Positions 12,387 to 36,065 of a DNA stretch of 64,000 nt are shown here, piece after piece (positions within the stretch are counted from its first letter, which is position 1; every line of letters starts with the position of its first letter). Origin of the DNA: Saprospiraceae bacterium (GTDB lineage: Bacteria; Bacteroidota; Bacteroidia; Chitinophagales; Saprospiraceae). The stretch covers positions 101,192 through 165,191 of the forward strand of contig JALHQW010000006.1 of assembly GCA_022841745.1 (NCBI GenBank), written 5' to 3'. The notes below the pieces were generated by a model. The model had not been told where the DNA came from. It ran no database searches and saw only the letters and a list, made by a program, of their open reading frames with translations. The position numbers were made by a program, and so were the translations under genes.

Positions 12387-12400
12387 AAGGTTGGTAAAAC

Positions 12401-12427
12401 GTCGGCAAGGTTTTGAACCTTGCCGAC
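12401..12427 (+). terminator. Perfect hairpin between dehydratase and permease genes
   Basis: GTCGGCAAGGTT and its exact complement flank a TTG loop, followed by TTTGC. It may attenuate transcription between the two genes, or be a REP-like element; the T-run is weak. Confidence 0.5.
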
Positions 12428-12476
12428 TTTGCATGCGCGTTTATTCACGTTCAAACTCTTAGGAATTCACTGCAAA

Positions 12477-13805
12477 ATGGTTATACTTTATTTACTCCTT
12501 AGCATTGCTTTGATAGTCTTTCTCACCGTACAGTGGAAAGTACACCCCTTCCTCGCCCTGCTACTCACGGCGATACTCTACGGTTTTGCGGCGGGTGTGC
12601 CTGTCAAGGAGTTGATAGCGGCAGTGAACACAGGTTTTGGCGAGACCCTTGGTAAAATCGGCATCATCATCGTGCTGGGCTGCGTCATCGGGGCGTTTTT
12701 GGAGAACTCAGGAGGGGCGTATGCACTGGCCGAAAAAGTATTAAGTGTTATCGGGCGCAAAAAAGTGCCAACTGCGATGGGCATCATGGGCTATATCGTT
12801 TCCATCCCCGTCTTTGCCGACAGCGGCTTTTTGCTCCTCTCGCCCTTGAACAAAAGCTTGTCGAAAAAAGCGGGAATCACCCTCGCCGCCCCTGCCATAG
12901 CATTGGCCTTGGGCTTGATAGCCACCCATACAATGGCGCCTCCTACCCCTGGCCCCATCGCTGCGGCGGGCATCTTGGGCGCAGACCTCGGGCTGGTGCT
13001 GGCAGTGGGGTTGCCCGTGGCAGCGTTAGGATTGATACCCGCTATTTTCTTCGCAAAACGAGTGGCTGGCAAGGTCTGGATAGACCCCAACCCCAACCTT
13101 GACGCCGAGGAATTGGCCAAGCTTACCGCCGCTGCCCCACCTGCTTTCAAGGCTGCCCTGCCCATCCTTGTCCCGATTCTGCTCATCGTGGCAAAATCGG
13201 TTTTTGCGAAGCAACTGGATGAAAACAGCGCTGCGTTCCACGCCCTGAATTTCATTGGTGAACCTTTCGTCGCACTGCTCATCGGGGCGGCGCTTGCGCT
13301 GTTTTTACCAAAGAAATTCGACAAGGAAATGCTTTCCATTTCGGGTTGGGCGGGCACTGCCATGCAGGATGCAGCCAGCATCATCCTTATCACCGGGGCA
13401 GGTGGTGTGTTCGGCAAAATGCTGCAAGTTTCTGGCATCTCCGATGTAGTTGGTACGGCCATGTCCACTGCCAATCTTGGAATTTGGTTGCCTTTTTTGA
13501 TTGCCTTTGCCTTGAAAACGGCACAAGGATCTTCCACTGTTGCCATCATCACCACCGCCTCCATCGTTGCGCCTTTGTTGCCCTCACTTGGGTTGGAAAG
13601 CGACTTGGCGAAAGCCACAACGGTCATTGCCATTGGTGCTGGCTCGACCATGATTTGCCATGCCAACGACAGCTTTTTTTGGGTCGTCACGCAGATGTCC
13701 GGCATGGACGTGAAGCGGGGCTACTCCCTCTTGAGCCTTGGCTCGGTGGTGTTGGGCACCTCTTGTGCGTTGCTGCTTTTTATCCTAATGAAATTCATCG
13801 CTTAA
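12477..13805 (+). CDS. GntP-family gluconate/sugar-acid permease
   Basis: 442 residues, mostly hydrophobic with about 12 predicted membrane segments. GntP signatures are visible: [22 protein letters not shown], the [23 protein letters not shown] segment, and [18 protein letters not shown] near the C-terminus. Members are proton symporters for gluconate and related acids. Between a dehydratase and a FAH-type enzyme, the likely cargo is xylonate or another pentonate. The ATG at 12477 is chosen because it starts the first membrane helix; the longer frame from 12420 runs through a hairpin. Confidence 0.9.
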
Positions 13806-13812
13806 CTTCCTT

Positions 13813-14652
13813 ATGAAAATCTACAAACTAACATCAGGCATCCTAATTGAATCGGGCGAAAAATACTATCTGCTCGAAAATTATGGCTGGGACGATTTCA
13901 TCAACGACGACAGCCTTTATCAAAAAATAAGGAGCTTGTTGCAGCAGAAGGAGCCAATCGAAACAGGTTTGACCATGCTTCAAAACGGGCTGCAAGCCCC
14001 CATTGGCAGCCAAGAGATTTGGGCCAGCGGCGTCACCTATTTCAACAGCAAACTTGCCCGGCAAGAGGAGTCTGAAGCGGCAGGTGGCGGTGATTTTTAC
14101 GCAAGGGTTTACGTCGCCGAGCGGCCAGAGCTATTCTTCAAGTCCACCCCGCACCGCTGCGTGGGGTCGGGAGAGAAAGTGCGCATTCGCAAGGACTCGA
14201 CTTGGAACGTGCCGGAGCCAGAGTTGACCCTGCTGCTCACTTCCAGTGGCAAAATCGTCGGTTACACCATCGGCAACGACATGAGTTCCCGTAGCATAGA
14301 AGGCGAAAACCCGCTTTATTTGCCGCAGGCAAAAACCTACGATGGCTGCGCTGCTCTCGGCCCATGCATCTACGTGAGCGAGTCGCCATTTCCGACTGAA
14401 AGCGAAATTCACCTGCTCATCAACCGAGATGGAGAGGCTGTTTTTGAAGGAAAGACGAGCCTTGCACAGATGAAGCGCAGCTTGGAAGAACTGGTTGGCT
14501 GGCTGTTCCGTGAATTGAGCTTCCCACACGGCTGCTTCTTGATGACAGGCACAGGCATCGTTCCGACCAAGGATTTCACCCTTGAATCTGGCGATGAAAT
14601 CCGTATCAGCATTGATAAAATCGGGACACTGACGAACTGGGTAAGTTATTGA
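13813..14652 (+). CDS. FAH-family enzyme, probable 2-keto-3-deoxy-pentonate dehydratase
   Basis: 279 residues of the fumarylacetoacetate hydrolase fold. Metal-ligand residues appear in EPELTLLL (E135, E137) and [13 protein letters not shown] (D156), with [15 protein letters not shown] downstream, as in 2-keto-3-deoxy-D-arabinonate dehydratases. Predicted reaction: 2-keto-3-deoxy-xylonate/arabinonate to 2-oxoglutarate semialdehyde. It starts 7 bp after the permease, so co-translation is likely, and lies upstream of an aldehyde dehydrogenase that would complete the pathway. Its TGA stop abuts a repeat element. A different FAH reaction cannot be excluded without structural comparison. Confidence 0.82.
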
Positions 14653-14732
14653 GTCAGCAGTGTTTTAGTCCGCAGTCCTTCAGTCCGCAGTCCGCAGTCA
14701 GTGACTGCTACCACGGCCCAGACTGCGCACTA
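14650..14732 (+). repeat. CAGTCCGCAGTC hairpin element, plus orientation
   Basis: It begins at the stop codon of the FAH-type gene (TGA|GTCAGCAG), continues as TTCAGTCCGCAGTCCGCAGTC, has the loop AGTGACTGCTACCACGGCCC and a short right arm (AGACTGCGCACTAAT). The right arm is shorter than the left, so the copy is eroded or truncated, possibly by the insertion that follows. Confidence 0.83.
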
Positions 14733-14871
14733 ATAAAGCGACCCCTCATTTACCCCCTCTAAAATTAATGCTGACATTTGATGTTGAAACTCGTGAAATG
14801 AAAGTTGCTATCAATAATTTGAGGATAGATGGGGTTTCTCGAAGTTTTTAATCATTCAATTCGGAAATATT

Positions 14872-15117
14872 ATGAGTAAAAAGGAAGCTATACAAATCTT
14901 CTAAGACAAGCAGGTACGTACCATTTGGGATGCCGAGCAGGAGAAATGGTATGTTTCAATAATTGATGTTGTGGCGGTACTTACGAGTCAACCTAATTAC
15001 CAAGGAGCAAGAAACTATTGGAAAGTATTGAAATACAGACTCGTTAAAGAAGGTAACGAAACGGTTACAAATTGTAACCGGTTGAAAATGGCAGCCGATG
15101 ATGGCATAAGTAAATAA
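14872..15117 (+). pseudogene. Bro-N / phage antirepressor-type gene remnant
   Basis: From the ATG at 14872 the frame reads MSKKEAIQIF, then an in-frame TAA (14902-14904), then a well-preserved segment including VRTIWDAEQEKWYVSIIDVV, NYWKVLKYRLVKEGNE and a final LKMAADDG before a stop at 15115. This matches the N-terminal part of the common Bro-N/antirepressor-like family, which is normally much longer. It is therefore broken at both ends: an early stop and a missing C-terminal half. The tract is AT-rich and lies in the middle of the Weimberg-type operon, which suggests insertion followed by decay. The rest of 14733-15169 holds no further gene I can recognise. Confidence 0.72.
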
Positions 15118-15169
15118 AATTTCCCGTCAGCCCAACAACCGTTTACGCATCAATCATACAATTTAAAAC

Positions 15170-16744
15170 ATGACACTCACCGGACACAATTTCATCGGAA
15201 AAACACCGAGTGCTAAGGGCACTACCACCTTCCACGCCATCAACCCCGCCACAGGCGAGCCACTCCAACCTGCCTTCCACGAAGCGACGCCAGATGAGGT
15301 GGATGCTGCCGTGCAAAAGGCCGCTGCCGCATTTCAAGTTTACCGCAAAAAATCAGGAGTGGAAAAGGCGCTATTCCTCGAAGCAATCGCTGACGAAATG
15401 ATGGCGCTGGAAGACCTTGGCCAGCGCTACTGCGCCGAGTCGGGCCTCCCCGAAGGCCGTTTCCAAGGGGAGCGAGGCCGCACGGTGGGCCAGCTTCGGC
15501 TCTTCGCCCAATTGCTGCGGGAAGGCTCTTGGGTAAATGCCCGCATTGACCCTGCCCTACCCGACCGCCAACCGCTGCCACGTCCCGATATTCGAAGCAT
15601 GGAGCGCCCACTTGGCCCTGTTGGGATCTTCGGGGCGAGCAATTTCCCATTGGCCTTCTCGGTTGCAGGCGGCGATACTGTTTCGGCCCTGGCGGCGGGC
15701 TGCACAGTAGTAGCTAAGGCACATCCAGCACACCCTGGCACTTGCGAGTTGGTAGCAACGACCATTTTGGCTGCAGCCGAAAAAACGGGGATGCCCGACG
15801 GCGTTTTCTGCATGGTGCATGGTACTTCGACGACGGTCGGCATGGGCATCGTGCAGCACCCACTGATAAAGGCAGTCGGCTTCACGGGTTCCTTTCGTGG
15901 CGGCAAGGCCCTTTTCGATGCTGCTGCGCAACGGCCCGAACCCATCCCGGTTTATGCTGAAATGGGCAGCACAAACCCCGTTTTCGTATTGCCGGGTGCC
16001 CTGCGGCAAAATGGCGGGGACATTGCCAAGGGGCTGGCCGCATCGGTCACGCTGGGCGTCGGGCAGTTCTGCACCAATCCCGGTTTGACCATCGTTGAAA
16101 AATCCACTGAGGGCAGCGCATTCATGGATATTTTAAGCGAAAATATTACTACTGCTACGGCAGGTGTGATGCTGACCGAAGGCATCCACCAAGCCTACGA
16201 GCGTGGCATTGATTCGCTGGCGCAACAGCCGGGCGTACGGGCAACAGCCAAAGGCAAAAAATCAGGCGCCGTCAACAGGGCAGAAGCAAACCTGCTCACT
16301 GTGGACGCCGCCATTTTTTTGACCAATAAAAGGCTGGAAGAAGAAGTATTCGGGCCATCCACGCTGGCCATTCAAACGGGCGGCCACGACGAACTAATGG
16401 CAGTAGCCCAAAGCCTGAGTGGCCATTTGACGGCCACTGTTTTCGGTACGCCCGATGACTTGGAACAGCACCGTGATTTGATTGATTTGCTGTCGCAAAA
16501 AGCGGGTCGGCTCATCATTAACGGCTATCCAACGGGGGTCGAAGTTTGCCATGCAATGGTACACGGCGGGCCGTTCCCTGCCACGACGGACAGCCGAAGC
16601 ACCTCGGTCGGCCCGGCGGCCATTACCCGTTTTACCCGGCCAGTTAGCTACCAAAACTTCCCCCAAAACCTGTTGCCCGATGAATTGAAAGACAATAATC
16701 CCTTGAATATCTGGCGGATATGGGATGGGGAGCGGGGGAAATGA
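15170..16744 (+). CDS. 2-oxoglutarate semialdehyde (2,5-dioxovalerate) dehydrogenase, NAD(P)-dependent
   Basis: 524 residues of the aldehyde dehydrogenase superfamily. The catalytic cysteine is in GVGQFCTNPGL (C301) and the general base in VYAEMGSTNP (E264); the coenzyme loop is VGFTGSFRGG. The N-terminus LTGHNFIGKTPSAKG and overall length match the 2,5-dioxovalerate dehydrogenase subfamily. Predicted reaction: 2-oxoglutarate semialdehyde to 2-oxoglutarate, the last step of the Weimberg and related pentose or glucarate pathways. The pseudogene insertion upstream leaves 437 bp between the preceding element and this start, so an additional promoter may drive it. Stop TGA is fused to a repeat. 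Confidence 0.9.
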   Translation: MTLTGHNFIGKTPSAKGTTTFHAINPATGEPLQPAFHEATPDEVDAAVQKAAAAFQVYRKKSGVEKALFLEAIADEMMALEDLGQRYCAESGLPEGRFQGERGRTVGQLRLFAQLLREGSWVNARIDPALPDRQPLPRPDIRSMERPLGPVGIFGASNFPLAFSVAGGDTVSALAAGCTVVAKAHPAHPGTCELVATTILAAAEKTGMPDGVFCMVHGTSTTVGMGIVQHPLIKAVGFTGSFRGGKALFDAAAQRPEPIPVYAEMGSTNPVFVLPGALRQNGGDIAKGLAASVTLGVGQFCTNPGLTIVEKSTEGSAFMDILSENITTATAGVMLTEGIHQAYERGIDSLAQQPGVRATAKGKKSGAVNRAEANLLTVDAAIFLTNKRLEEEVFGPSTLAIQTGGHDELMAVAQSLSGHLTATVFGTPDDLEQHRDLIDLLSQKAGRLIINGYPTGVEVCHAMVHGGPFPATTDSRSTSVGPAAITRFTRPVSYQNFPQNLLPDELKDNNPLNIWRIWDGERGK

Positions 16745-21530: not shown

Positions 21531-22940
21531 ATGAGCCTTGAATCGCAAAAATTAACGGTAGGCGAAAAAATCGGCTACTCCCTCGGCGACCTCGCCGCCA
21601 ACCTCGTTTTCCAGACACTGCTGACTTTTTTGGCCTTCTTTTACACGGATGTATATGGCCTGAAACCGGAGGTGGCCACGCCGATTATCTTTTTCGTTGG
21701 CCTGTTTGCGGCGCTCGTTTTCAATCCCATCATTGGGGCACTGGCCGACCGGACGGTGACCCGCTGGGGCAAGTTCCGGCCCTGGATTTTGTGGACGGCA
21801 GTGCCATTGGGCGTGATGGCCTTGCTAGCATTTAGCACCCCCGATTTTTCCCCACAGGGAAAAATCATCTACGCCATAGTCACGTATGCGTTGCTGCTGT
21901 TGCTTTATGCCGCCAACAACCTGCCATATTCAGCACTGAGCGGTGTCATCACAGGCGACATGGGCGAGCGGAACAGCATGTCGTCCTACCGTTTTGTGGC
22001 GGTAATGGTGGCGCAGTTCGTGGTGCAGGTGCTGATGTACCCTTTCGTGGACTACATGGGCGGCGGCGACCGGGTGGTAGGCTTCTCCAAGGTAATGACC
22101 TGGCTGGCCGGGGCTGGCATGGTGATGATGTTCATCACGTTTTTCACCACCAAAGAGCGCATCGTTCCCACGCCGGAGCAAAAATCTACGCTTAGCCAAG
22201 ACCTGAAGGATATTGGCAAAAATAAGCCTTGGGCCATCATGCTGTTGCTGACCATCCTCGTTTTCATCACGCTGGCGCTCAAGGGCGGCATGTACGTTTA
22301 CTATTTTGAAAACTACCTGGACGAAGCAGCCATTGGCAGTTTCCTTTCAAAATTTGGCTTGTCGGGCATCGAAAAACCCGCCTCCTACGGGTTTAGCGTC
22401 TTCAACGGTTGTGGCATCATCTTCATGATTGTGGGCATCATGTTCTCCAAAGGCTTGGCCGATAAATACGGGAAGCGGGATACTTTCGGGGTGGCACTCG
22501 TGCTGTCCACGCTCTTCATCCTCGTGCTGAATTTCATCCCGCCCACCTCCATCGGGCTGGTGATGATGGCGCAGGTGCTGCACGGCTTTTTCTATGGCAT
22601 CACCATCCCCATCCTCTGGGCGATGATTGCAGACGTGGCCGACTACTCCGAATGGAAAAACAACCGCCGGGCCACGGCCATCATCTTCTCCGCCATGCTG
22701 GTCGGCCTGAAACTGGGACTGACCTTCGGAAGCGCACTGGTCACGGGCATTTTAGGCGCCTATGGCTACGTGGCAGGAGCTGAAACCCAAAACCCTGAAA
22801 CCATCCAAGGCATCAAACTCTCGGTAAGCATCTACCCTGGCCTGTTCTTCCTGCTGGGGGCTGGGCTGCTGTTTTTCTATGAAATAAACAAGAAGATGGA
22901 GGTGGAGATTGAAAAGGATTTGGCGGAAAGGAGGAAATAG
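21531..22940 (+). CDS. GPH-family (glycoside-pentoside-hexuronide) sugar:cation symporter
   Basis: 469 residues, about 12 membrane segments. The N-terminus GEKIGYSLGDLAANLVF and the loop ADRTVTRWGKFRPWILW are GPH hallmarks, as in xyloside and melibiose transporters. It would carry xylo-oligosaccharides or xylosides over the inner membrane, between the outer xylanase and the unsecreted GH43 that follows. ATG at 21531 is preferred to a longer frame that runs through the repeat. Its stop codon TAG is the first triplet of a repeat element. Confidence 0.92.
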   Translation: MSLESQKLTVGEKIGYSLGDLAANLVFQTLLTFLAFFYTDVYGLKPEVATPIIFFVGLFAALVFNPIIGALADRTVTRWGKFRPWILWTAVPLGVMALLAFSTPDFSPQGKIIYAIVTYALLLLLYAANNLPYSALSGVITGDMGERNSMSSYRFVAVMVAQFVVQVLMYPFVDYMGGGDRVVGFSKVMTWLAGAGMVMMFITFFTTKERIVPTPEQKSTLSQDLKDIGKNKPWAIMLLLTILVFITLALKGGMYVYYFENYLDEAAIGSFLSKFGLSGIEKPASYGFSVFNGCGIIFMIVGIMFSKGLADKYGKRDTFGVALVLSTLFILVLNFIPPTSIGLVMMAQVLHGFFYGITIPILWAMIADVADYSEWKNNRRATAIIFSAMLVGLKLGLTFGSALVTGILGAYGYVAGAETQNPETIQGIKLSVSIYPGLFFLLGAGLLFFYEINKKMEVEIEKDLAERRK

Positions 22941-23006
22941 TCCGCAGTCCTTCAGTCCGCAGTCCGCAGTCGGGGGCTGTTAATACGGCACTTATTGCGG
23001 ACTATT
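22938..23006 (+). repeat. CAGTCCGCAGTC hairpin element, plus orientation
   Basis: It starts with the symporter stop (TAG|TCCGCAGTCC), has the loop GGGGGCTGTTAATACGGCAC and a short arm ATTGCGGACTATTGGACT. A 50-base unrelated stretch follows before the tandem array. Confidence 0.85.
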
Positions 23007-23058
23007 GGACTAAAATTATGGGCTTTGAAAAAAACTTCCAAAATTCGCAGTAAAGACA

Positions 23059-23303
23059 TGCTACCACGAAACTGACTGAAGGCTGTAGGACTGTAGGACT
23101 GAAGACTGTAGGACTGTAGGACTGAAGACTGTAGACTGTAGGACTGAAGACTGTAGGACTGTAGGACTGTAGGACTGTAGGACTGTAGGACTGTAGGACT
23201 GTAGGACTGTAAGACTGAAAAATTAAATTGCCGCAACCCAAGGAAAGTGCCTGCAACCACGGCCCCGACTGTGGACTGCGGACTGAAAGACTTAGGACTA
23301 AAT
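23059..23303 (+). repeat. GACTGTAG tandem array plus second hairpin half, leader of GH43
   Basis: A loop remnant (ATGCTACCACGAAACTGACTG) leads into irregular CTGTAGGA/CTGAAGA units and then seven perfect consecutive copies of the 8-base unit CTGTAGGA (23151-23206). After a short unique stretch comes another loop-plus-right-arm (GCAACCACGGCCCC, then ACTGTGGACTGCGGACTG), ending 4 bases before the GH43 start codon. The array and its relics occupy the rest of the 363-bp spacer 22941-23303; no gene is present. Confidence 0.88.
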
Positions 23304-24317: not shown

Positions 24318-24483
24318 TCGGCAGTCCATCAGTCCACAGACCGACAGTCGGTGACTGCTACCTTTGCACTGATTGCGGACTGCCAGACTGAATACTAAAG
24401 ACTCTTAACTGAATCCAAAATGCGCAGACGTGAGCTGCTACCACGGCACCGACTGCGGACTGTGGACTTAAAGACTGTGGACT
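24315..24483 (+). repeat. Two consecutive CAGTCCGCAGTC hairpin elements abutting a start codon
   Basis: The GH43 stop is the first triplet (TAG|TCGGCAGTCC); the first loop reads GGTGACTGCTACCTTTGCAC with the right arm ATTGCGGACTGCCAGACTG. A second loop (GTGAGCTGCTACCACGGCAC) and arm (CGACTGCGGACTGTGGACTT) follow. The final unit GTGGACT is immediately followed by ATG of the aldo/keto reductase, leaving no room for a Shine-Dalgarno sequence. Confidence 0.88.
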
Positions 24484-25467: not shown

Positions 25468-25548
25468 TCCTACAGTCTTCAGTCCGCAGTCCACAGTCGG
25501 GGCTGCTACCACGGCACTGACTGCGGACTGAAGGGGACTACGGACTCA
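25465..25548 (+). repeat. CAGTCCGCAGTC hairpin element, plus orientation (best-preserved copy)
   Basis: From the aldo/keto reductase stop (TAG|TCCTACAGTC) to six bases before the xylulokinase ATG. Left arm TTCAGTCCGCAGTCCACAGTC, loop GGGGCTGCTACCACGGCAC, right arm TGACTGCGGACTGAAGGGGACT. TTCAGTCCGCAGTC pairs exactly with GACTGCGGACTGAA, 14 base pairs. Confidence 0.92.
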
Positions 25549-25553
25549 AAAAA

Positions 25554-27491
25554 ATGTACCTACTCGGATACGATATCGGAAGTTCGACCATCAAGGCAGC
25601 GTTGCTTGATGCGAAGACCCACAAGGTCTTGGGGCTTACGCATTACCCAGACCAAGAGATGGACATGATTTCGAGGCAGCGGGGCTGGGCGGAGCAGCAG
25701 CCGGAGGTGTGGTGGCAGCACTTTTGCGCTGCAACGCACAGGCTGTTGGACACCACAGGCGTTGACCCCAAGCGCATAATGGGCATCGGTATCAGCTACC
25801 AGATGCACGGATTGGTATTGATAGACAAGGAAATGCAGGTGCTACGGCCATCCATTGTCTGGTGTGATAGTCGGGCGGTGGCCATTGGGCAGCAAGCTTT
25901 CGATGAGCTTGGGGAGGATTATTGCCTTCGGCAAATGCTCAACTCACCCGGCAACTTCACTGCCTCAAAGCTGAAGTGGGTCAAGGACAACGAACCGGAC
26001 GTTTACGAAAAAGCCTATAAACTGCTCCTGCCCGGCGACTTCATCGCCATGAAACTGACGGGCGAGGCAACCACCACAATTGCTGGTTTGACAGAAGGTA
26101 TTTTTTGGGATTTCAAGGAGAAAAAAGTCGCCAACCGCCTGCTCGAACACTACGGGCTTCGCAAAGACCTAATTGCAGAGGCCGTCCCGACCTTCTCCAT
26201 TCAAGGCAAGTTGACCAAGGCTGCCGCAGCTCGCACAGGGCTGGCAGAGGGCACATCCATCAGTTATAGGGCTGGTGACCAGCCAAACAATGCATTGAGC
26301 CTCAACGTGTTGCGGCCCGGTGAAGTGGCTGCCACCAGTGGTACTTCGGGAGTGGTGTACGGTATCGTGGACAAACCAGTTTTTGACAAAAAATCAAGGG
26401 TAAACTCCTTTGCCCACGTTAATTACGAACAAAACCACGACCGCATCGGCGTATTGCTCTGCTTAAACGGGGCGGGCATCGAGTACAGTTGGGTAAAGCA
26501 CCAGGTGGCCCGCAGTGACCACTCCTACGCCGACATGGAGCGCATGGCCAGCACCGTTCCAGTCGGCTCAGATGGGCTTTGCGTACTGCCGTTCGGCAAT
26601 GGGGCGGAGCGGATGCTTGAAGACCGCAACGTAAACGCCCATTTTTTCAACCTCGATTTCAACCGCCACACGAGGGCGCATCTATACCGGTCATCGTTAG
26701 AGGGCATTGCTTTTTCATTCGTGATGGGCGTCAACATCTTGCAGGAGTTGGGGTTGAACGTGGACGTCATTCGGGTCGGCAACGACAATATGTTCCAGTC
26801 AAAGATTTTCGCAAAAACCATCTCAACGCTGCTCAACAGCAAAATCGAAGTAGTGGACACGACAGGGGCGGTGGGAGCAGCACGGGCTGCTGGGGTTGCA
26901 ACCGGGCTTTACGCCAACCTTGAAGAAGCGCTGCAAGACGTGAAGCCGGGTGCGGTCTATGAGCCGGACCTGAATTACTCGCTTTGCCAACAAGCTTATA
27001 GCTACTGGATGTCAAGGGTGCGATTGGCGGTGGACGAAGGCACTGCCGTGGCAAGGCATGCAGCGCCCCAAAAGGATGCATTGAATCAATCAAAGGAACT
27101 AGCAGCAGCTCGCCTCCAACTGGATGCAGCGAATGAATTTTTGGCAGAAATAAAAACTGCCTTACAGCGGAACGACAGCGCCTCAATATCGAAGGTGTTG
27201 CAGAAAATAGACGCCAAGTTGAACAGCAGCAATCAACAATGGGATGGTTTTGAGGAACATTTTGACTTGCTCCACGATGATTTTATCAAGAAATTAAAGA
27301 AGCATTACCCTTCACTATCTATGCAGGAGATAAAGCTCTGCGCCTACCTTAAAATGAAACTCAGCACCAAGGAAATGGCGCAACAAATGAGACTCTCCAT
27401 CCGGGGAATTGAGACAGGGCGCTACCGTCTTCGCAAGAAAATGGGGTTGAGCGATGGTGAGAACCTGGCGGAGCATTTGGAACGCATATAA
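25554..27491 (+). CDS. Xylulokinase fused to a C-terminal LuxR/GerE-type helix-turn-helix domain
   Basis: 645 residues. Residues 1-495 form a complete FGGY xylulokinase: ATP-site DIGSSTIKAAL, sugar-site YQMHGLV (84-88), WCDSR, the catalytic Asp in AGDQPNNAL (D242) and the phosphate motif SGTSGVVYG. Residues about 505-560 are coiled-coil-like. Residues 562-645 match the C-terminal output domain of Bacteroidota propeller/Y_Y_Y regulators: WDGFEEHFDLLHDDFIKKLK, then LSMQEIKLCAYLKMKLSTKEM and the recognition-helix region IRGIETGRYRLRKKMGL. The plain paralogue at 27863 stops after the kinase part. I infer a kinase that could sense xylulose and bind DNA. A silent leftover fusion is possible, but the helix-turn-helix residues look intact. 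Confidence 0.9.
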   Translation: MYLLGYDIGSSTIKAALLDAKTHKVLGLTHYPDQEMDMISRQRGWAEQQPEVWWQHFCAATHRLLDTTGVDPKRIMGIGISYQMHGLVLIDKEMQVLRPSIVWCDSRAVAIGQQAFDELGEDYCLRQMLNSPGNFTASKLKWVKDNEPDVYEKAYKLLLPGDFIAMKLTGEATTTIAGLTEGIFWDFKEKKVANRLLEHYGLRKDLIAEAVPTFSIQGKLTKAAAARTGLAEGTSISYRAGDQPNNALSLNVLRPGEVAATSGTSGVVYGIVDKPVFDKKSRVNSFAHVNYEQNHDRIGVLLCLNGAGIEYSWVKHQVARSDHSYADMERMASTVPVGSDGLCVLPFGNGAERMLEDRNVNAHFFNLDFNRHTRAHLYRSSLEGIAFSFVMGVNILQELGLNVDVIRVGNDNMFQSKIFAKTISTLLNSKIEVVDTTGAVGAARAAGVATGLYANLEEALQDVKPGAVYEPDLNYSLCQQAYSYWMSRVRLAVDEGTAVARHAAPQKDALNQSKELAAARLQLDAANEFLAEIKTALQRNDSASISKVLQKIDAKLNSSNQQWDGFEEHFDLLHDDFIKKLKKHYPSLSMQEIKLCAYLKMKLSTKEMAQQMRLSIRGIETGRYRLRKKMGLSDGENLAEHLERI

Positions 27492-27505: not shown

Positions 27506-27573
27506 TTGACGTAAGAATGACGTATTTTAAAAAGCAATTGGCGAATCTTTGCAGTACGTCAACATTTCGTCAA
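27506..27573. promoter_or_regulatory. Inverted repeat with four TGACG half-sites, possible operator
   Basis: Left arm TTGACGTAAGAATGACGTA (27506-27524) and right arm, complement strand, TTGACGAAATGTTGACGTA (27555-27573). Each arm contains two TGACG half-sites 11 bases apart, about one helical turn, and the arms face each other across 30 bases. It starts 15 bases after the fused kinase gene. An operator for the HTH domain encoded next door is an attractive reading; a terminator is unlikely because no T-run follows. Confidence 0.5.
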
Positions 27574-27674
27574 GTGGGCACATACGTTTTCCTTTGTCCT
27601 GAAATGAAGTTCCGCCTAGCTGCTAAATGGTAAAATCAATTTTGCATAAAGCAAACGAAAAGCAACTAAATGGT

Positions 27675-27815
27675 ATGAAAAAAGGCTGTGCATTACTTAT
27701 CACCATATTAATTGGCTTTGGGCAATTCAATCTTCTAGGCCAGTCAGGAGGCTTCATCACCTTCCCCAATGGGGCGAGGCAGCCATTTGCCTTCACCTAT
27801 TTCTTTAAACCATAG
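27675..27815 (+). CDS. Possible small secreted peptide (46 residues), unknown
   Basis: MKKGCALLITILIGFGQFN followed by LLGQSGGFITFPNGARQ and a short aromatic tail. The first 23 residues look like a signal peptide with an LxGQ cleavage region; only about 23 residues remain after cleavage. I do not recognise it. It may be a real small protein or the truncated start of a lost secreted gene. It is the only possible gene in the 371-bp gap 27492-27862. Confidence 0.35.
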   Translation: MKKGCALLITILIGFGQFNLLGQSGGFITFPNGARQPFAFTYFFKP

Positions 27816-27862
27816 CATTTTTTAATCCCTGTTTCCTACGCCTATTTCATCACACCTAACTT

Positions 27863-29386
27863 ATGTACCTACTTGGCTTTGATATAGGAAGTTCGTCCAT
27901 CAAAGCGGCACTTGTTGACGCCACTTCTGGGGCAACTGCAGGCTTGGTACACTACCCCGACTCGGAAATGGCCATGACCGCAGTCCAACCGGGGTGGGCT
28001 GAGCAAGACCCGCAGTTGTGGTGGGAGTGCATTTGCGCAGCCACCAAAAAGCTTTTGCAAAAAACAGCTGTACAACCTACTGATATCCAAGGCATTGGCA
28101 TCAGCTACCAAATGCACGGTCTGGTGGTGGTGGACAAAAACCAAGCACCACTCCGCCCTTCCATTATCTGGTGCGACAGCCGGGCAGTGGAAATCGGCAA
28201 CCGGGCTTTCGATGAAATAGGGCATGAGCGCTGCCTTTCGCACCTGCTCAACTCGCCCGGCAACTTCACCGCCTCAAAACTCAAATGGGTACAGGCAAAC
28301 GAGCCTGCACTTTACCAAAAAATTGACAAGTTCATGTTGCCCGGCGATTACATTGCCATGCGACTGACAGGGGAGGCCATGACCACGCCGAGCGGCCTTT
28401 CGGAAGGCACCTTATGGGATTTCAAGGAAAATGCCTTGGCCGACCTTGTGCTCGACCATTACGGGATTGACCGCAGCCTGGTACCACACATCGCCCCAAC
28501 CTTTTCGCTACAAGGCGAACTGACACAGGCCGCCGCCGATGCCACGGGCCTCCAAAAAGGGATACCAGTGGCCTACCGGGCTGGCGACCAACCGAACAAT
28601 GCCCTGAGCCTCAACGTGTTGCAGCCAGATGAAGTGGCTGCTACGGGCGGTACTTCGGGCGTTGTTTATGGCGTGGTGGATAAGCCAAATTACGACCCTC
28701 AAAGTCGGGTGAACAGTTTCCTCCATGTGAACCACGGGCTGTCGTCAACCCCAAGGGGGCGAGCCGTCAACCGTCAATCGTCAACCGATAGGATAGGCAT
28801 CCTGCTATGTATCAACGGAGCTGGCAGCCAGTACAATTGGGTTCGTCAGCAGATAGCACAGAGTGGCTTGACTTATGGTGAAATGGAGCAAAAAGCCGCT
28901 TCGGTTCCAGTGGGTTCAGACGACCTGCGCATCATCCCCTTCGGAAATGGGGCAGAGCGGATGTTGGGCAACCAAAACACGGGGGCACAGATAAGCAACC
29001 TGAACTTCAACCGCCATACAAGCGCACACTTATACCGGGCGGCATTGGAGGGCATCGCTTTCTCGTTTGTGCATGGGGTGGGCATTTTGAAGGAAATGGG
29101 CATGGGCATTTCAGCCATGCGGGCTGGCAACGACAATTTGTTCCAGTCGTCCATTTTCAGTCAAACCATCTCCAACCTGCTCGGCTGTACCATTGAATTG
29201 GTGGAAACAACCGGGGCAGTGGGAGCTGCAAAGGCAGCGGGCGTGGCTACGGGGGCATTTTCGTCTGTTGACGAAGCCATGCAGCACACAGAAATCTTGA
29301 TGAAATATACCCCTCAAAATTCCAATGGAATTTACACAGCTGCCTATGCCGATTGGGAAAAGGCGTTGGGCAAAATCATCCATTAA
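27863..29386 (+). CDS. xylB: Xylulokinase (stand-alone paralogue)
   Basis: 507 residues, FGGY family: DIGSSSIKAAL at the N-terminus, YQMHGLV, WCDSR, the catalytic Asp in AGDQPNNAL and GGTSGVVYG. It phosphorylates D-xylulose to xylulose 5-phosphate. It aligns with the kinase part of the 25554 gene through nearly its whole length, so the two are tandem duplicates, and ends where the other continues into the HTH region. Relative to that paralogue it has an insertion of about 15 residues (GLSSTPRGRAVNRQSSTDR region) encoded by GTCAACC repeats. It lies 8 bp upstream of xylose isomerase, a tight operon. Confidence 0.92.
   Translation: MYLLGFDIGSSSIKAALVDATSGATAGLVHYPDSEMAMTAVQPGWAEQDPQLWWECICAATKKLLQKTAVQPTDIQGIGISYQMHGLVVVDKNQAPLRPSIIWCDSRAVEIGNRAFDEIGHERCLSHLLNSPGNFTASKLKWVQANEPALYQKIDKFMLPGDYIAMRLTGEAMTTPSGLSEGTLWDFKENALADLVLDHYGIDRSLVPHIAPTFSLQGELTQAAADATGLQKGIPVAYRAGDQPNNALSLNVLQPDEVAATGGTSGVVYGVVDKPNYDPQSRVNSFLHVNHGLSSTPRGRAVNRQSSTDRIGILLCINGAGSQYNWVRQQIAQSGLTYGEMEQKAASVPVGSDDLRIIPFGNGAERMLGNQNTGAQISNLNFNRHTSAHLYRAALEGIAFSFVHGVGILKEMGMGISAMRAGNDNLFQSSIFSQTISNLLGCTIELVETTGAVGAAKAAGVATGAFSSVDEAMQHTEILMKYTPQNSNGIYTAAYADWEKALGKIIH
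28742..28788 (+). repeat. GTCAACC repeat insertion inside xylulokinase
   Basis: CGTCAACCCC, a GGGGGCGAG spacer, then CGTCAACCGTCAATCGTCAACC. The tandem paralogue at 25554 lacks this segment at the equivalent place (after NSFAHVN), so it is an in-frame insertion or expansion in a loop. Confidence 0.75.
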
Positions 29387-29394
29387 AATAAAAC

Positions 29395-30747
29395 ATGAGT
29401 AAAGTAAAAAGTAGCAAAATTGCTGTAACGACAGGCACCAAGGAATACTTCAAGGGAATTGGTAAAATAGCCTTCGAAGGGCTGGAATCCGACAATCCGC
29501 TCGCCTTCCGTTTCTATGATGAGAGCCGGGTAGTGCGTGGCAAAACGATGGCCGAGCATTTCAAGTTCGCCGTAGCATGGTGGCACACCCTATGCGGTAC
29601 AGGCAGCGACCCTTTCGGCCCCGGCACCAAGGAGTTCCCTTGGAACAAGGCCAAAGACCCCATGCAGGCGGCCCGGGACAAGATGGACGCCGGCTTCGAG
29701 TTCATCACCAAGATGGGCATCCCCTACTATTGCTTCCACGACTACGACCTCGTTGCCGAAGGCAAAAATCTAAAGGAAAGCGGTGAGCGCCTCGACACCA
29801 TAACTGACTACGCGAAGGAGAAGCAAAAGTCCAGCGGCGTGAAGCTGCTATGGGGCACGGCCAACCTGTTCAGCCACCCCCGCTACATGAACGGGGCGGC
29901 TACCAATCCCGATTTCCAGGTAGTGGCTTACGCAGGTGCGCAGGTGAAAAATGCGCTGGACGCCACCATCAAACTGGGCGGCGAGAACTACGTGTTCTGG
30001 GGTGGGCGTGAGGGCTACATGAGCCTGCTCAACACCGACATGAAGCGGGAACTCGACCACCTTGGCCGCTTCCTGAACATGGCCAAGGACTATGCCCGCA
30101 AGCAAGGGTTCAAGGGCACGTTTTTCATAGAGCCAAAGCCGATGGAGCCAAGCAAGCACCAGTATGATTTCGATGCTGCGACTTGCATTGGCTTCATCCG
30201 GGAGTACGGACTGGAAAAGGACTTCAAACTGAACCTGGAGTTCAACCACGCCACCCTTGCGCAGCACACCATGCAGCACGAGATGCAAGTGGCCGCCAGT
30301 GCAGGGATGCTTGGCAGCCTCGACGCCAACCGGGGCGACAACCAGAACGGCTGGGACACCGACCAGTTCCCCGTGGATGTGTACGAGCTGACCGAGGCCA
30401 TGCTCGTCCTGCTGGAAAGCGGCGGCCTTAAAGGGGGCGGTATCAACTTCGACGCCAAGACCCGCCGCAACTCGACTGACCTCGCAGACATCTTCTATGC
30501 CCATATCGGGGGCATGGACGCCTTTGCGAGGGCACTGCTGGCGGCGGACGCAATCTTGGAAAAATCCGATTACCAAAAGCTACGGGCAGTGCGCTACGCC
30601 TCCTTCGACAAGGGCAAGGGGAAGGACTTTGCCAAGGGCAAGCTCTCCCTCAAAGACCTGGCAAAGCTGGCCGCCGAGTACGGGGAGCCGGAGCAACGGA
30701 GCGGGAAGCAGGAGCTTTTTGAGAATATCATCAACAGGTATGTCTGA
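29395..30747 (+). CDS. xylA: Xylose isomerase
   Basis: 450 residues, class II length. Active-site residues: H115 in [10 protein letters not shown]246/K248 in [15 protein letters not shown], metal ligands in [11 protein letters not shown] and [20 protein letters not shown]. It converts D-xylose to D-xylulose and forms an operon with the xylulokinase 8 bp upstream. Together they feed the pentose phosphate pathway, in parallel with the oxidative genes at 10668-16744. Confidence 0.97.
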
Positions 30748-31052: not shown

Positions 31053-34000
31053 ATGAAACAGATACATTCATCCAAAATCCAACGGCTAATGCTTAGGCTT
31101 AGGCCGGTGGGGATTACACTTTCGTTTCTGTTGCTGTTTTCAGCGGGGCTTTTCGCACAGGCGAAAACCGTGAAGGGTACAGTGACCGACGAGACGGGAC
31201 AGGGCCTACCAGGGGTCAACATCCTTGTGCAAGGTACTGCCGATGGCACAATAACCGATGTGGACGGCACCTACGAGTTGAGGGCCGCCAAGGGTGCTAC
31301 CCTTTTGTTTTCTTTTACAGGTTACACTGCGCAATCGGCTGTTGTTGGCGACAGCCCTACCATGGACGTCTCCTTGCAGCCTAATTCAGAGGTGCTCAGC
31401 GAGGTAGTCGTTACTGGCTACTCCTCACAGCGCAAGCGGGACATAACAGGGGCGGTATCGGTGGTCAACTCAGAAGAATTGAATCAAATAGCAGCTACCA
31501 GTTTCACGCAAAAGCTGGAGGGCAGGGCATCTGGTCTGACCATTTCCACATCCGGTGAGCCAGGAGAAGGCACTTCGGTACGTATTCGGGGCGTCAGCTC
31601 TTTTCAGAACAATGACCCACTTTACATCATTGACGGTGTGCCGGTACAGGATGCTTTCAATACGGGCTTCAACCCGAACGACATCGAGAGCATTCAAGTA
31701 CTGAAAGACGCTTCTGCTGCATCCATTTATGGTGCTCGTGCAAACAACGGCGTAATCATTATAACTACCAAGAAAGGTAAGGCTGGCAAGGTTAGCGTCA
31801 CTTATGATGCTTATATTGGCATGGCCAACCCAATCAACAGGCCTGATTATATGATTACCGACCCAAAGGATTTTTCAAACTACCTTTGGGACAAGCACGA
31901 AAACGCAGGTTTGGTGGTGGATGCTTCCAACCCATATTCAGGTGGCAGGGGTGTATTGCCGACCTATTCCTTTCCGTTTAGCGCTGGCACAACACCTTCC
32001 GAATCGGACTATGTGTTCCCTACTTCTTTGGTCATGAAAGCTAACCAGTCAGGTACCAATTGGTTCGATGAGGTATTCGATGCTGCTGCGCCAATGACGG
32101 AACACAACCTCGGGATTTCCGGCGGCAGTGATTTGGGCAGCTACTATATTTCGGCAGGGTACCTGAATCAGCAAGGCACCATGATTCACAACTATTTCAA
32201 CCGCTACACCATTAGAGCGAACACGCAGTTCAATAAAGGCAGGTTCTCTTTTGGTGAAAATCTTACCCTCAGCCGTACAGATGGTATCGGCAACGACGGC
32301 GTAAGTGGCGGCAACCAAGACGAACAAGGCGTGATGACTTGGATTACGCTGATGAACCCCCTCACTCCTGTGAAAGACGTTGGAGGAGAATGGGGCGGTG
32401 ACAAGGCCAATGGCATGAGCAACGGCACAAATCCCGTAGCCAGCCTTACCCGCAACAAGGATAACGTTCGCACCAGCTACCGTGTGCTGGGCAACGTCTT
32501 TGCAGAGGTCAACATCGTGGACGGCCTGAAAGCCCGCACAAGCCTTGGTACGGATTTCAACCAAGGCTTCCGGGGTGCATTTACCTTCCCGAACTATGAA
32601 AACCGAGAGCCTAGCGCTACCAATGGTTTCCGGGAAGACTGGAATACAGGTTTCAATTGGACGTGGACGAACACTTTGAACTTCAGCAAGACCTTTGCTG
32701 ATGCCCACAATTTTGGCATTTTGGTTGGCTACGAAGCTATTAAGGGGAAGGGGCGTTTCATCAACGGTTCATTTGCTAACTACTTTACGCAGGACATCAA
32801 CGCTTGGTACCTAAACGGTGGCTTGGCCAACCCGGGTACTCGCCAAATCAGCAGCGGTGGTGGCCCATATTCTTTGGCATCATCTTTTGCTAAATTGGAC
32901 TACTCTTTCAGTGACAAGTACCTGGTAAGCCTCACGGTTCGTCGGGATGGTTCTTCCAATTTTGGGGAAGAGAAGTATGGTACTTTCCCAGCAGCCAGCC
33001 TTGGTTGGCGAGTGAGCAATGAATCGTTCATGCAAGGGCTTGACTGGTTGGATGACCTCAAGCTGCGCTTTGGCTGGGGTATCACTGGTAACCAAAGTGT
33101 ACCCGGCGGCAACGCCTTCGACCGTTTTGGTGGTGGCACTTCTTCCACTTTCTATGACATAGCAGGTTCTAATAGCGGCCTTACCACTGGCTACTCGCTT
33201 GCAAGGCGCGGTAACAAGGACACTAAGTGGGAAGAAAACATTTCAACCAATTTTGGTGTGGACGTATCTTTGTTCGGTGGCAAATTGAACTTTGTAGCAG
33301 ACGTTTACAAACGCACAGTTGATGGCCTTCTATTCAATCCAGATAACCCTGGCACCGCAGGTACTGCAAGTCCAGCCTACATCAATATTGCCAAGATGGA
33401 CAACAACGGTATTGACCTCGGCTTGGACTACAAGAACAGGGTGAACAGCGATTTCGGTTACAGCATCGGCATTACTTGGGCTACTTACAAAACAGAAGTC
33501 GTCAAAATTGACGGAAGCACTGAGACTGTTTTCCCTACAGGTTTCGACTCAAGGATTGGCATAATTAACCATTTCGCCCTTGGCTTGCCAGTTTCCTCCT
33601 TCTACGGTTACACTGCTGATGGCCTCTTCCGCTCTCAACCAGAGGTGGACGCTCATGCAATGCAAGATGGCAAGGATATTGGCCGAATTCGGTTTAAAGA
33701 CCTCAATAGCGACGGCGTCATCAACGACATGGACAAAGGTGCCATTGGCAACCCGCACCCAGACTGGTATGGTGGTCTTAACCTCGGGTTCAATTACAAG
33801 CAATTCGACTTGAACATCTTCTTGTTTGCCTCCGTTGGCAACGAGATTTTCCGCTACAATAAACTGTTCGACACTTTCGGCTTCTTCAATTCCAATGTTA
33901 GGAAGGACGTGCTTACCAACTCGTTCCACCCAACCAAGAATCCAGATGGTGACCTGCCGATGCTCAACGTGAACGATACCTACAGCTACCAACCGAGTAG

Positions 34001-34298
34001 CTTCTTTGTAGAAGATGCCTCTTACTTGCGCGCCAAGAACCTCCAGTTGGGCTATAATTTCAAGCCTGCTACCCTTGGCAAGTCTTTCAGCAGCCTTCGG
34101 GTTTATATCTCGGCACAGAACCTGTTCACATTGACTAAGTATGAGGGACTCGACCCTGCTCCGTCGAACTTTGGCGTACAAGGCTCTAATCCGAACGACC
34201 TGAATTCCAATATCAAAAGCGACCTTTGGACTGGCTTTGATTTTGGTAACTATCCTGCCAGCAAAATTTTCATGCTCGGCGTGAATGCAGGTTTTTGA
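31053..34298 (+). CDS. SusC/RagA-family TonB-linked outer-membrane transporter
   Basis: 1081 residues with a signal peptide ending SAGLFAQ. A carboxypeptidase-regulatory-like domain (about 40-115; VKGTVTDETGQGLPGVNILVQGT) precedes the TonB plug (VSVVNSEELNQ, VRIRGVSSFQNNDPLYIIDGVPV), then a 22-strand barrel ending in aromatic MLGVNAGF. No STN domain, so signalling through an anti-sigma factor is not expected. Together with the SusD gene 79 bp downstream it imports oligosaccharides; location next to xylan enzymes and a shared operator suggest xylo-oligosaccharides. Confidence 0.95.
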   Translation: MKQIHSSKIQRLMLRLRPVGITLSFLLLFSAGLFAQAKTVKGTVTDETGQGLPGVNILVQGTADGTITDVDGTYELRAAKGATLLFSFTGYTAQSAVVGDSPTMDVSLQPNSEVLSEVVVTGYSSQRKRDITGAVSVVNSEELNQIAATSFTQKLEGRASGLTISTSGEPGEGTSVRIRGVSSFQNNDPLYIIDGVPVQDAFNTGFNPNDIESIQVLKDASAASIYGARANNGVIIITTKKGKAGKVSVTYDAYIGMANPINRPDYMITDPKDFSNYLWDKHENAGLVVDASNPYSGGRGVLPTYSFPFSAGTTPSESDYVFPTSLVMKANQSGTNWFDEVFDAAAPMTEHNLGISGGSDLGSYYISAGYLNQQGTMIHNYFNRYTIRANTQFNKGRFSFGENLTLSRTDGIGNDGVSGGNQDEQGVMTWITLMNPLTPVKDVGGEWGGDKANGMSNGTNPVASLTRNKDNVRTSYRVLGNVFAEVNIVDGLKARTSLGTDFNQGFRGAFTFPNYENREPSATNGFREDWNTGFNWTWTNTLNFSKTFADAHNFGILVGYEAIKGKGRFINGSFANYFTQDINAWYLNGGLANPGTRQISSGGGPYSLASSFAKLDYSFSDKYLVSLTVRRDGSSNFGEEKYGTFPAASLGWRVSNESFMQGLDWLDDLKLRFGWGITGNQSVPGGNAFDRFGGGTSSTFYDIAGSNSGLTTGYSLARRGNKDTKWEENISTNFGVDVSLFGGKLNFVADVYKRTVDGLLFNPDNPGTAGTASPAYINIAKMDNNGIDLGLDYKNRVNSDFGYSIGITWATYKTEVVKIDGSTETVFPTGFDSRIGIINHFALGLPVSSFYGYTADGLFRSQPEVDAHAMQDGKDIGRIRFKDLNSDGVINDMDKGAIGNPHPDWYGGLNLGFNYKQFDLNIFLFASVGNEIFRYNKLFDTFGFFNSNVRKDVLTNSFHPTKNPDGDLPMLNVNDTYSYQPSSFFVEDASYLRAKNLQLGYNFKPATLGKSFSSLRVYISAQNLFTLTKYEGLDPAPSNFGVQGSNPNDLNSNIKSDLWTGFDFGNYPASKIFMLGVNAGF

Positions 34299-34376
34299 CC
34301 ACTAGCTTTTTTAATCATTTCGGGTGTTTGAAAAACACATGTTATTTCATCATCCTTCTTAAAAATAAAAATTAAC

Positions 34377-36065
34377 ATGAAAAAGTATCTAAACTGGCTG
34401 TTTGCGGCCACTTTGGCGGGCGGTATTCTCTTTGCCTGCTCCGAAGACTTTTTGGATGCTCCAGCACAAGGGTCGCTCGACAACCTGACCCTTGCCAACC
34501 AAGCGGGTGTCGAGGCAGCCTTGATTTCTGCCTATTCCATGCTCGACGGCTGGAATGCAGATTGGGGCGTATTCAATCCACCTTGGGGTGGAGCTGGCAG
34601 CAACTGGGTTTGGGGTAGCGTCACTTCCGACGAAGCCTATAAAGGCTCAGAGCCAGGCGACCAAGGAGAAATCCAACAAGTAGAACTTTACCAATGGGCA
34701 CCGGGCAACGTTTACTTCAACGTCAAGTTCCGTGCGCTTTACGAAGGCATCGCCCGTTCGAATGCCACACTGAAACTTGCAGCCGCTGTAACTGACCTGA
34801 CCGAAGGTACCCGCATAGCTGGCGAAGCCCGTTTCCTACGTGCACACTATCATTTCGATGCTTGGAAGATGTGGAAAAACGTGCCTTACTACACTGAGGC
34901 TGACGAAGATTTCCGCAAGGCCAATAACGAGGACATTGTGCCCCGTATAGCAGAGGATTTCCAATTTGCCATTGATAATCTTCCAGAAACGCAAGGCGCA
35001 GTTGGTCGTGTGACCAAGGGGGCAGCCCAAGCCTATCTTGGGAAATTGTTGCTCTACACTGGCGATTACTCAAAAGCGAAGGAGCAGTTCGACAACGTTG
35101 TGAACAGTGGCAAATATGACCTTGCACCATGCTTTCATGACTTTTTCACTACTGATGCTGAAAACGGCTCTGAGATGATTTTCTCCATCCAAGCCTCTGT
35201 GAACGACGGTGATGGTGAAGGCTCCAACGGGAACTTTGCCGACCGCCTCAACCACCCGCACGGTGGCAGCCCATTTGGCTGCTGCGGCTTCCACCAACCT
35301 TCGCAAAACCTTGTGAATTCGCATAAAGTGGACGCCAACGGCCTACCTTTGATTGATTCTTTCAATGGTTCCGATGTCACTGCAACCGATGCCGTTGACC
35401 CTCGCCTCGACTGGACGGTTGGCCGTGACGGTGTGCCTTTCCTCGATTGGGGTACGCACAACGAGACCTGGATTCGTGCAAGGTCATGGGCTGGGCCTTT
35501 CAGCTCAAAGAAATTTATCCATGCCAACGGACAACAAAGTTCAGTGGGCTGGTCCAACGTTCAACTAAGCCCAGTAAACATCCCTGTCATCCGCTATGCC
35601 GACGTGCTGCTGATGCTGGCGGAATGCGAGGTAGAATTGAACAACTTGGAGCGGGCACGTGAATTGGTGAACATGATACGGGAGCGGGCAGGTGTCTGCG
35701 CACAAGGCGCTGATGGCAATGCAACAACTGACCTATCCGACCCCGGCATTACTTGGGCCACCTACAGCGTGGGAACTTACACCGCTGCTTGGACTGACAA
35801 GGATGCTGCTCGTGATGCAGTTCGCTTCGAGCGCAAAATCGAGCTGGCATTGGAAGGTCACCGCTTCTTTGACCTGCGCCGCTGGGGTATTGCAAAGGAG
35901 GTTATCAATAACGACTACCTACCAGTTGAAAAGACCAAGCGCACCTACTTGGAGGCTTCAGGCGGTTTCGAAGACAGGCATGTACTGTTCCCGCTGCCTT
36001 CTGTTCAGATTGAGCTGAGCAAGAAGGACGGACAGCCGCAACTCCAGCAGAATGCTGGATATTGA
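34377..36065 (+). CDS. SusD/RagB-family surface glycan-binding lipoprotein
   Basis: 562 residues, lipoprotein signal ending ILFAC, then SEDFLDAPAQGSLDN typical of SusD N-termini. The TPR-like helical core includes RGKAAQAYLGKLLLYTGDY-like and PVIRYADVLLMLAECEVELN segments, and the C-terminal signature FERKIELALEGHRFFDLRRWG is complete. It caps the SusC pore and presents xylan fragments. A clear intrinsic terminator follows at 36108. Confidence 0.95.
   Translation: MKKYLNWLFAATLAGGILFACSEDFLDAPAQGSLDNLTLANQAGVEAALISAYSMLDGWNADWGVFNPPWGGAGSNWVWGSVTSDEAYKGSEPGDQGEIQQVELYQWAPGNVYFNVKFRALYEGIARSNATLKLAAAVTDLTEGTRIAGEARFLRAHYHFDAWKMWKNVPYYTEADEDFRKANNEDIVPRIAEDFQFAIDNLPETQGAVGRVTKGAAQAYLGKLLLYTGDYSKAKEQFDNVVNSGKYDLAPCFHDFFTTDAENGSEMIFSIQASVNDGDGEGSNGNFADRLNHPHGGSPFGCCGFHQPSQNLVNSHKVDANGLPLIDSFNGSDVTATDAVDPRLDWTVGRDGVPFLDWGTHNETWIRARSWAGPFSSKKFIHANGQQSSVGWSNVQLSPVNIPVIRYADVLLMLAECEVELNNLERARELVNMIRERAGVCAQGADGNATTDLSDPGITWATYSVGTYTAAWTDKDAARDAVRFERKIELALEGHRFFDLRRWGIAKEVINNDYLPVEKTKRTYLEASGGFEDRHVLFPLPSVQIELSKKDGQPQLQQNAGY

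Follow-up and report, generated by a model that had tools for sequence, protein, structure and literature searches.

ROK-family repressors (NagC, Mlc, and B. subtilis XylR) carry an N-terminal helix-turn-helix (HTH) on a sugar-kinase fold and mostly lack kinase activity. In the trigger enzymes NadR, PutA, and BirA, a single polypeptide catalyzes a pathway step and also binds DNA to control that pathway. For xylose, Bacteroides XylR BT0791, a member of the NrtR family, is the predicted regulator of the xylRBAE operon (PMC3878776).

We analyzed a 64,000-nucleotide stretch of DNA (hereafter, the window) from a Saprospiraceae bacterium, in which a xylulokinase-type FGGY kinase runs on into a coiled coil and a NarL/LuxR-type HTH. 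The first-pass annotation of the window knew of no FGGY-HTH example, and our search of the open-access literature also found none (subscription papers were outside its scope). We consider it likely that this fusion is a one-component, bifunctional trigger enzyme, that is, a working xylulokinase that also regulates its pathway via an operator of four half-sites; the kinase activity, DNA binding, effector, and activation are inferred.

The fusion gene, its distribution, and its tail

The gene and its surroundings are listed in Table 1. The first-pass annotation had described an FGGY kinase with an intact catalytic Asp that continues in frame into a coiled coil and an HTH, with a plain paralogue just downstream. 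All of this stood: the 645-codon frame is continuous and its coordinates were right, neither a stop nor a frameshift separates the kinase from the HTH in the window or in 30 other full-length frames, and the paralogue shares 60% identity with the fusion over the kinase and lacks the tail. In Pfam searches, both kinase domains scored above their curated cut-offs, FGGY_N at aa 2–245 (E = 2.5e-46; 158.7 bits, cut-off 28.8) and FGGY_C at aa 259–449 (E = 2.7e-11; 44.1 bits, cut-off 27), and D242 is present. Judged by its domains and residues, the predicted protein is a member of the FGGY carbohydrate kinases. The single sequence gave only a weak GerE/LuxR HTH match at aa 587–635 (E = 0.002, under the gathering score). 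The Pfam matches of the protein included no ROK domain, its HTH being C-terminal, and no Reg_prop propeller or Y_Y_Y domain. The full-length structure model (pLDDT 69.5) was too weak for a fold search.

Table 1. Positions of the fusion gene, its parts, the putative operator, and neighboring genes in the window
Feature	Position	Strand	Basis or remark
Fusion gene, xylulokinase-type FGGY kinase, coiled coil, NarL/LuxR-type HTH (645 aa)	25554–27491	+	One uninterrupted 645-codon ORF
FGGY kinase part (aa 1–490)	25554–27023	+	Pfam matches, XylB alignment
Codon of D7	25572–25574	+
Codons of M84/H85	25803–25808	+
Codon of D242	26277–26279	+
Linker and long helices/coiled coil (aa 491–575)	27024–27278	+	Predicted helices 506–539, 542–556, 562–573
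NarL/FixJ-type HTH (aa 577–645)	27282–27488	+	Profile searches, predicted fold (pLDDT 93–97)
Putative operator pair 1, TGACGTA-N4-TGACGTA, exact	27507–27524	+	Only exact copy in the 8.4-Mb assembly
Putative operator pair 2, TGGCGAA-N4-TGCAGTA	27539–27556	+	Start-to-start distance from pair 1, 32 bp
Third, inverted pair, TGACGAA-N4-TGACGTA	27555–27572	-	Two-mismatch version in same-genus locus L091
-7-like promoter box TTCCTTTG	27589–27596	+	Distance from pair 2, 32 bp
Plain xylulokinase-type paralogue (507 aa), probable target	27863–29386	+	Pfam, alignment to fusion
Xylose isomerase XylA, probable target	29395–30747	+	TIGR02630 above cut-off
SusC/SusD pair after xylA	31053–36065	+	Family searches

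The same domain pair was sought in samples of 398 genomes of the window's family (Saprospiraceae), 298 of its order, and 296 of its phylum, and it recurs. At least 31 of the 398 family genomes contain a full-length, uninterrupted fusion frame (profile positions 1 to 658 or more of 660), and three more (G142, G221, and G297) have fusion parts at contig ends, so that the fusion is carried by at least 34 genomes with 22 genus labels. It is present in 11 of the 298 order genomes, one of which (G436) belongs to a sister family. In the phylum sample (E ≤ 1e-190), the fusion was found only in the window's own genome and in none of the 295 others; a plain kinase was present in 79 other genomes of that sample. 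A pattern scan of 84,980 species yielded 27 loci; in 17 of these both halves share one frame, which in one of the 17 is truncated by the start of the contig. A tree was built from 95 kinase domains. All 33 fusions included in it (the 31 full-length ones, the contig-cut kinase of G142, and G436; G221 and G297 were left out) were separated from the rest by a branch with 93% SH-aLRT support, obtained with a quick method. An earlier tree without G436 supported the same group at 99%, and G436 itself is placed inside the group. One origin of the fusion would be the simplest reading of these trees.

The tail gave clearer results with its homologues. GerE was detected in 18 of 18 homologous tails at E ≤ 0.1 (best, 3.9e-7), and a profile built from the 18 homologues picked up SsrB and EsrB (E about 1e-4) and EvgA, DosR, and FixJ (E 0.008–0.14) among PDB entries; phmmer with the tail alone against the PDB returned nothing useful. 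In the predicted fold of the tail, a small helical HTH (pLDDT 93–97) comes after long helices. The Foldseek neighbors of this fold were DosR, VraR, NarL, ComA, and FixJ; isolated domains among them reached a TMt of up to 0.82, but no match had E ≤ 0.001. HTH residues are conserved across the fusion homologues. Ratios of dN/dS, obtained for three of six fusion pairs (the other three were saturated), were 0.03–0.05 for the kinase, 0.01–0.13 for the HTH, and, where computed, 0.08–0.12 for the linker; these values are rough because dS exceeded 1.5 in two of the three usable pairs. The HTH is under selection.

Within the same genome, the closest relative of the tail is found in a 965-aa regulator (L219; 42% identity over the tail), in which Reg_prop scored above and Y_Y_Y just below the cut-off, and a second relative (1029 aa; 29% identity) has both domains above cut-off. 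Since these relatives are propeller-type regulators, the tail would most simply be the coiled coil and HTH of such a Bacteroidota regulator moved onto a kinase, which is the origin that the first-pass annotation had suggested. Directly after the fusion in Saprospirales bacterium GYS_P2D (G078; locus L017), there is a free-standing 177-aa protein of coiled coil and HTH (L103 7012–7545, minus strand) with 37.5% identity to the fusion tail, and a pair resembling the operator described below, with two mismatches, lies between the two genes. This protein might serve the fusion as a partner or act as its decoy.

Several other features of the window region were observed. The promoter region at 27597–27862 can be aligned at 70% with the same-genus locus L091, and the alignment extends to roughly the start codon of a GH3 gene. 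The window has no such gene at this place, as if it had been lost, which leaves a leader of about 260 bases before the plain kinase. Genes for a pentonate-type dihydroxy-acid dehydratase, a gluconate-type permease, an FAA-hydrolase family protein, and an aldehyde dehydrogenase nearest to alpha-ketoglutarate semialdehyde dehydrogenase lie at 10668–16744; most of them scored below equivalog cut-offs, and they perhaps represent an oxidative pathway for pentoses in addition to that via the isomerase. Intergenic tandem repeats GACTGTAG and AGTCCGC with a recurring CTGCTACCACGGCACNGACTGCGGACTG element are present around the xylan-cluster genes (22939–23219, 24320–24480, and 25470–25545). A third xylulokinase-like gene is on the same contig outside the window (G000:C6:192074–193393).

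A putative operator and the sign of regulation

The gaps around fusion genes contain a motif, TGACGTA-N4-TGACGTA, which is an 11-bp direct repeat. On comparative evidence only, these pairs are probably an operator, new in this analysis. The region 27506–27573, which had been proposed from the window alone as a DNA target for control of the xylose operon, gained support, as it contains the conserved tandem motif; there are no binding data. We hand-picked 32 sites at likely target operons by pair 1 alone, leaving out those directly before a fusion gene, overlapping second matches, and matches judged weak or unrelated (loci L092, L105, L114, L121 on the GH3 side, L181–L185, L196, and L202). Pair 2 follows pair 1 in 27 of the 32 sites (at least 11 of 14 positions; shuffles, mean 1.3, maximum 5), at a spacing of 32–33 bp in 26 of them and of 23 bp, about one helix turn less, in one. 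The pair-2 pattern was derived from the same 32 sequences in which it was counted. The Bacteroidota -7 consensus is TAnnTTTG, and a T[AT]NNTTTG box was found 32–33 bp after pair 2 in 16 of the 27 sites (1000 shuffles, mean 0.13, maximum 2).

The fusion is probably an activator, a sign that was inferred from this arrangement and not measured: two tandem pairs on one helix face at a fixed distance upstream of a promoter suggest activation. It is possible, but rather unlikely, that the apo-protein instead represses the operons and is released by xylulose. The layout of the target operons speaks against such a repressor: the -7-like box comes after both pairs, at the above distance from the end of pair 2, and activators typically bind in such a position. 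It would agree better with the fusion gene itself, because many genomes have a pair just before its start codon. With start codons assigned by a simple rule, the distance is -1 to 18 bp in 13 loci and larger in other loci; a protein bound so close to the start would presumably block expression. This position suggests autoregulation, and a negative sign would be compatible with it. In the two fusion genomes of the window's genus, its own and that of L091, no site precedes the fusion gene.

The kinase half and its substrate

Residues D7, M84, H85, W103, D105, D242, the GTSG loop (G263-T264-S265-G266), and N305-G306 are identical in 33 of the 33 fusions checked, which rules out a dead kinase as the general case. 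D242 of the window fusion aligns with D233 of E. coli XylB, which we take to be the catalytic base; the Met-His pair presumably contacts the substrate, and the roles of the ATP-loop residues are likewise assumed. In the absence of activity data, D-xylulose is inferred to be the substrate because of the Met-His pair and the nearby xylA. The XylB equivalog model (TIGR01312; cut-off 380.25) was missed by both the window fusion (291 bits) and the plain paralogue (289 bits), and no match in 13 scanned fusion genomes reached it; the substrate therefore remains an inference.

A scan of 13 chosen fusion genomes with the XylB model (E ≤ 1e-20) bears on the division of labor between the fusion and plain kinases. 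By analogy with ROK proteins, the kinase domain could be mainly a sensor whose residual activity is unimportant, with the plain paralogue doing the metabolism. We regard this as unlikely, although in five of the 13 genomes (G000, G004, G033, G036, and G436) a plain xylulokinase reaches about the same score as the fusion, and the fusion often precedes its target operon as a regulator gene would. The invariant D7, M84, H85, D242, and GTSG loop and the low kinase dN/dS speak against a mere sensor, and so do three genomes that have no XylB-like match besides the fusion at this threshold (G212, 100% complete; G266, 96%; G375, 86%). In these three, the fusion is located 51–94 bp upstream of xylA, and susD, GH3, and symporter genes belong to the same operon. 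Provided that these cells rely on the isomerase pathway, their xylulokinase has to be the fusion. G212 has, in addition, an operator-like site before this operon (no activity data). Further, weaker XylB-like matches were found in G145, G191, G239, G339, and G355 (best, 3e-68 to 2e-59). The SusC, SusD, GH3, and symporter labels rest on family searches with one to three proteins each and otherwise on BLAST clustering.

Association of the site with the fusion and comparison with known systems

Sites accompany the fusion far more often than they accompany plain kinases of fusion-less genomes. We counted them within 150 bp of the fusion on both strands at 32 loci, with 20 dinucleotide shuffles as control. 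With at most one mismatch, sites were found at 12 of 29 upstream and 16 of 32 downstream sides (shuffle mean, 0.0), and with at most two mismatches, at 17 of 29 and 20 of 32 (shuffle means over all these counts, 0.0–0.05); 12 of the 32 loci thus had no downstream site at this tolerance and distance. The corresponding numbers for plain kinases of fusion-less genomes were 1 of 38 upstream (400 bp) and 0 of 37 downstream, the G016 kinase being counted twice. Genome-wide, the loose pattern TGRMGTANNNNTGRMGTA had too high a background (164 of 398 genomes), so the exact pair 1 was used. It occurs in 16 of the 398 family genomes, namely 15 of 34 with the fusion versus 1 of 364 without a detected one (Fisher p = 4.9e-17, uncorrected for relatedness; because the genomes are related, this value overstates their independence). 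The reversed control pattern gave four sites in three genomes, none with the fusion.

Fusion genomes also have sites on other contigs, before plain xylB or xylB-xylA (G186, G362, and G033 [two mismatches]), before a GH26-like and GH3 gene pair (G194, one mismatch), and before susCD (G198, two mismatches); directly before a SusC/SusD pair, operator-like sites are found in some genomes other than the window's. For genomes with the fusion inside the operon, a site before susC was predicted beforehand. It was present with one mismatch about 142–145 bp upstream in G239, G212, and G355, all three lacking pair 2, and with two mismatches and pair 2 in G290, whose operon contains the fusion. No site was found in the 669 bp before susC of G375, and the contigs of G266 and G339 end at and before susC, respectively. 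Sites with at most two mismatches were also absent from the stretches read for the plain kinase copies of G036, G078, and G004:C15 (L192, L193, and L197). These absences count against the favored reading, as do the three sites without pair 2, the loci with no downstream site, and the lack of a site before the fusion gene in the window's genus. A one-mismatch search of the window's own genome gave no further convincing targets (seven matches versus nine for the reversed control). Two stretches around its propeller regulators contained no site within three mismatches that would indicate a general site for this HTH class.

Operator-like sites also flank an apparently broken fusion in G100 (L183). 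Three TGACGTA-like half-sites (L185 1952–1980; G130:C451) lie just after the stop of another protein, the tail of which has 35% identity to the fusion tail; these half-sites may be a related operator on which a related regulator acts.

It is improbable that another regulator owns the TGACGTA pairs and that the fusion merely travels along with them, its tail having another role. Room for such a regulator is left by the lack of direct binding data and by G251, a genome without a detected fusion that has a one-mismatch site (L202 2995–3012) 15 bp before the start of a plain kinase, maybe a relic after loss of the fusion. Mere co-travel would not account for the varying genes next to the fusion at different loci, for the sites on other contigs of fusion genomes, or for the near absence of the exact pair elsewhere, its sole copy in the 364 genomes without a detected fusion (G016) being inside a 758-aa ORF. 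A local NrtR-like XylR beside plain kinases was not recognized by eye in the gene lists of a few loci. An accidental gene fusion or assembly artefact can practically be dismissed: the window itself rests on a single assembly, but conservation of the full-length frame in at least 31 of 398 genomes, in one clade with low dN/dS, refutes it.

In the bifunctional trigger enzyme that we favor, the N-terminal FGGY domain would be a working xylulokinase, and the coiled coil with the NarL-type HTH would bind the four half-sites (0/11 and 32–33/43–44 bp) just upstream of the promoters of xylose/xylan operons (xylB-xylA, susCD, and GH3). Xylulose (with ATP) in the catalytic cleft would probably alter domain closure or the oligomer state and thereby DNA binding, and the fusion would activate these operons from sites upstream of the -7-like box. 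A stronger version seems to us evenly balanced between true and false: in some genomes of the family, one polypeptide would be both the only xylulokinase and the activator of the xylan/xylose operons, with its catalytic cycle, through the closed xylulose/ATP state, gating the four-half-site operator, and it would be the FGGY counterpart of ROK repressors with the activity kept.

If this holds, the fusion would add an independent second example of a sugar kinase that became a gene switch, here from the FGGY family and with an active site that has been retained. As a candidate operator has been defined, the link between enzyme state and transcription is testable with two purified components. The fusion is also a candidate xylose regulator for the window's family, for which the open-access search found no paper on such a regulator.

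Compared with known systems, the fusion shares FGGY_N, FGGY_C, the catalytic Asp, the Met-His pair, and a place near xylA with E. coli XylB (PDB 2itm), which lacks the approximately 155 extra residues of coiled coil and HTH. These residues are homologous to the coiled coil and C-terminal LuxR-type HTH of Reg_prop/Y_Y_Y one-component regulators such as L219, whereas the sensor half of the fusion is a kinase without propeller or Y_Y_Y. Like the fusion, ROK repressors join a sugar-kinase fold to a DNA-binding domain and control sugar genes, but they belong to another kinase family and their HTH is N-terminal, not C-terminal. NadR, PutA, and BirA follow the same enzyme-regulator logic as proposed here with other enzymes and other DNA-binding folds. 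Bacteroides XylR BT0791, from the same phylum, is a predicted xylose-operon regulator, as the fusion is proposed to be, but it belongs to the NrtR family, and its gene is separate from xylB, which encodes the kinase (PMC3878776).
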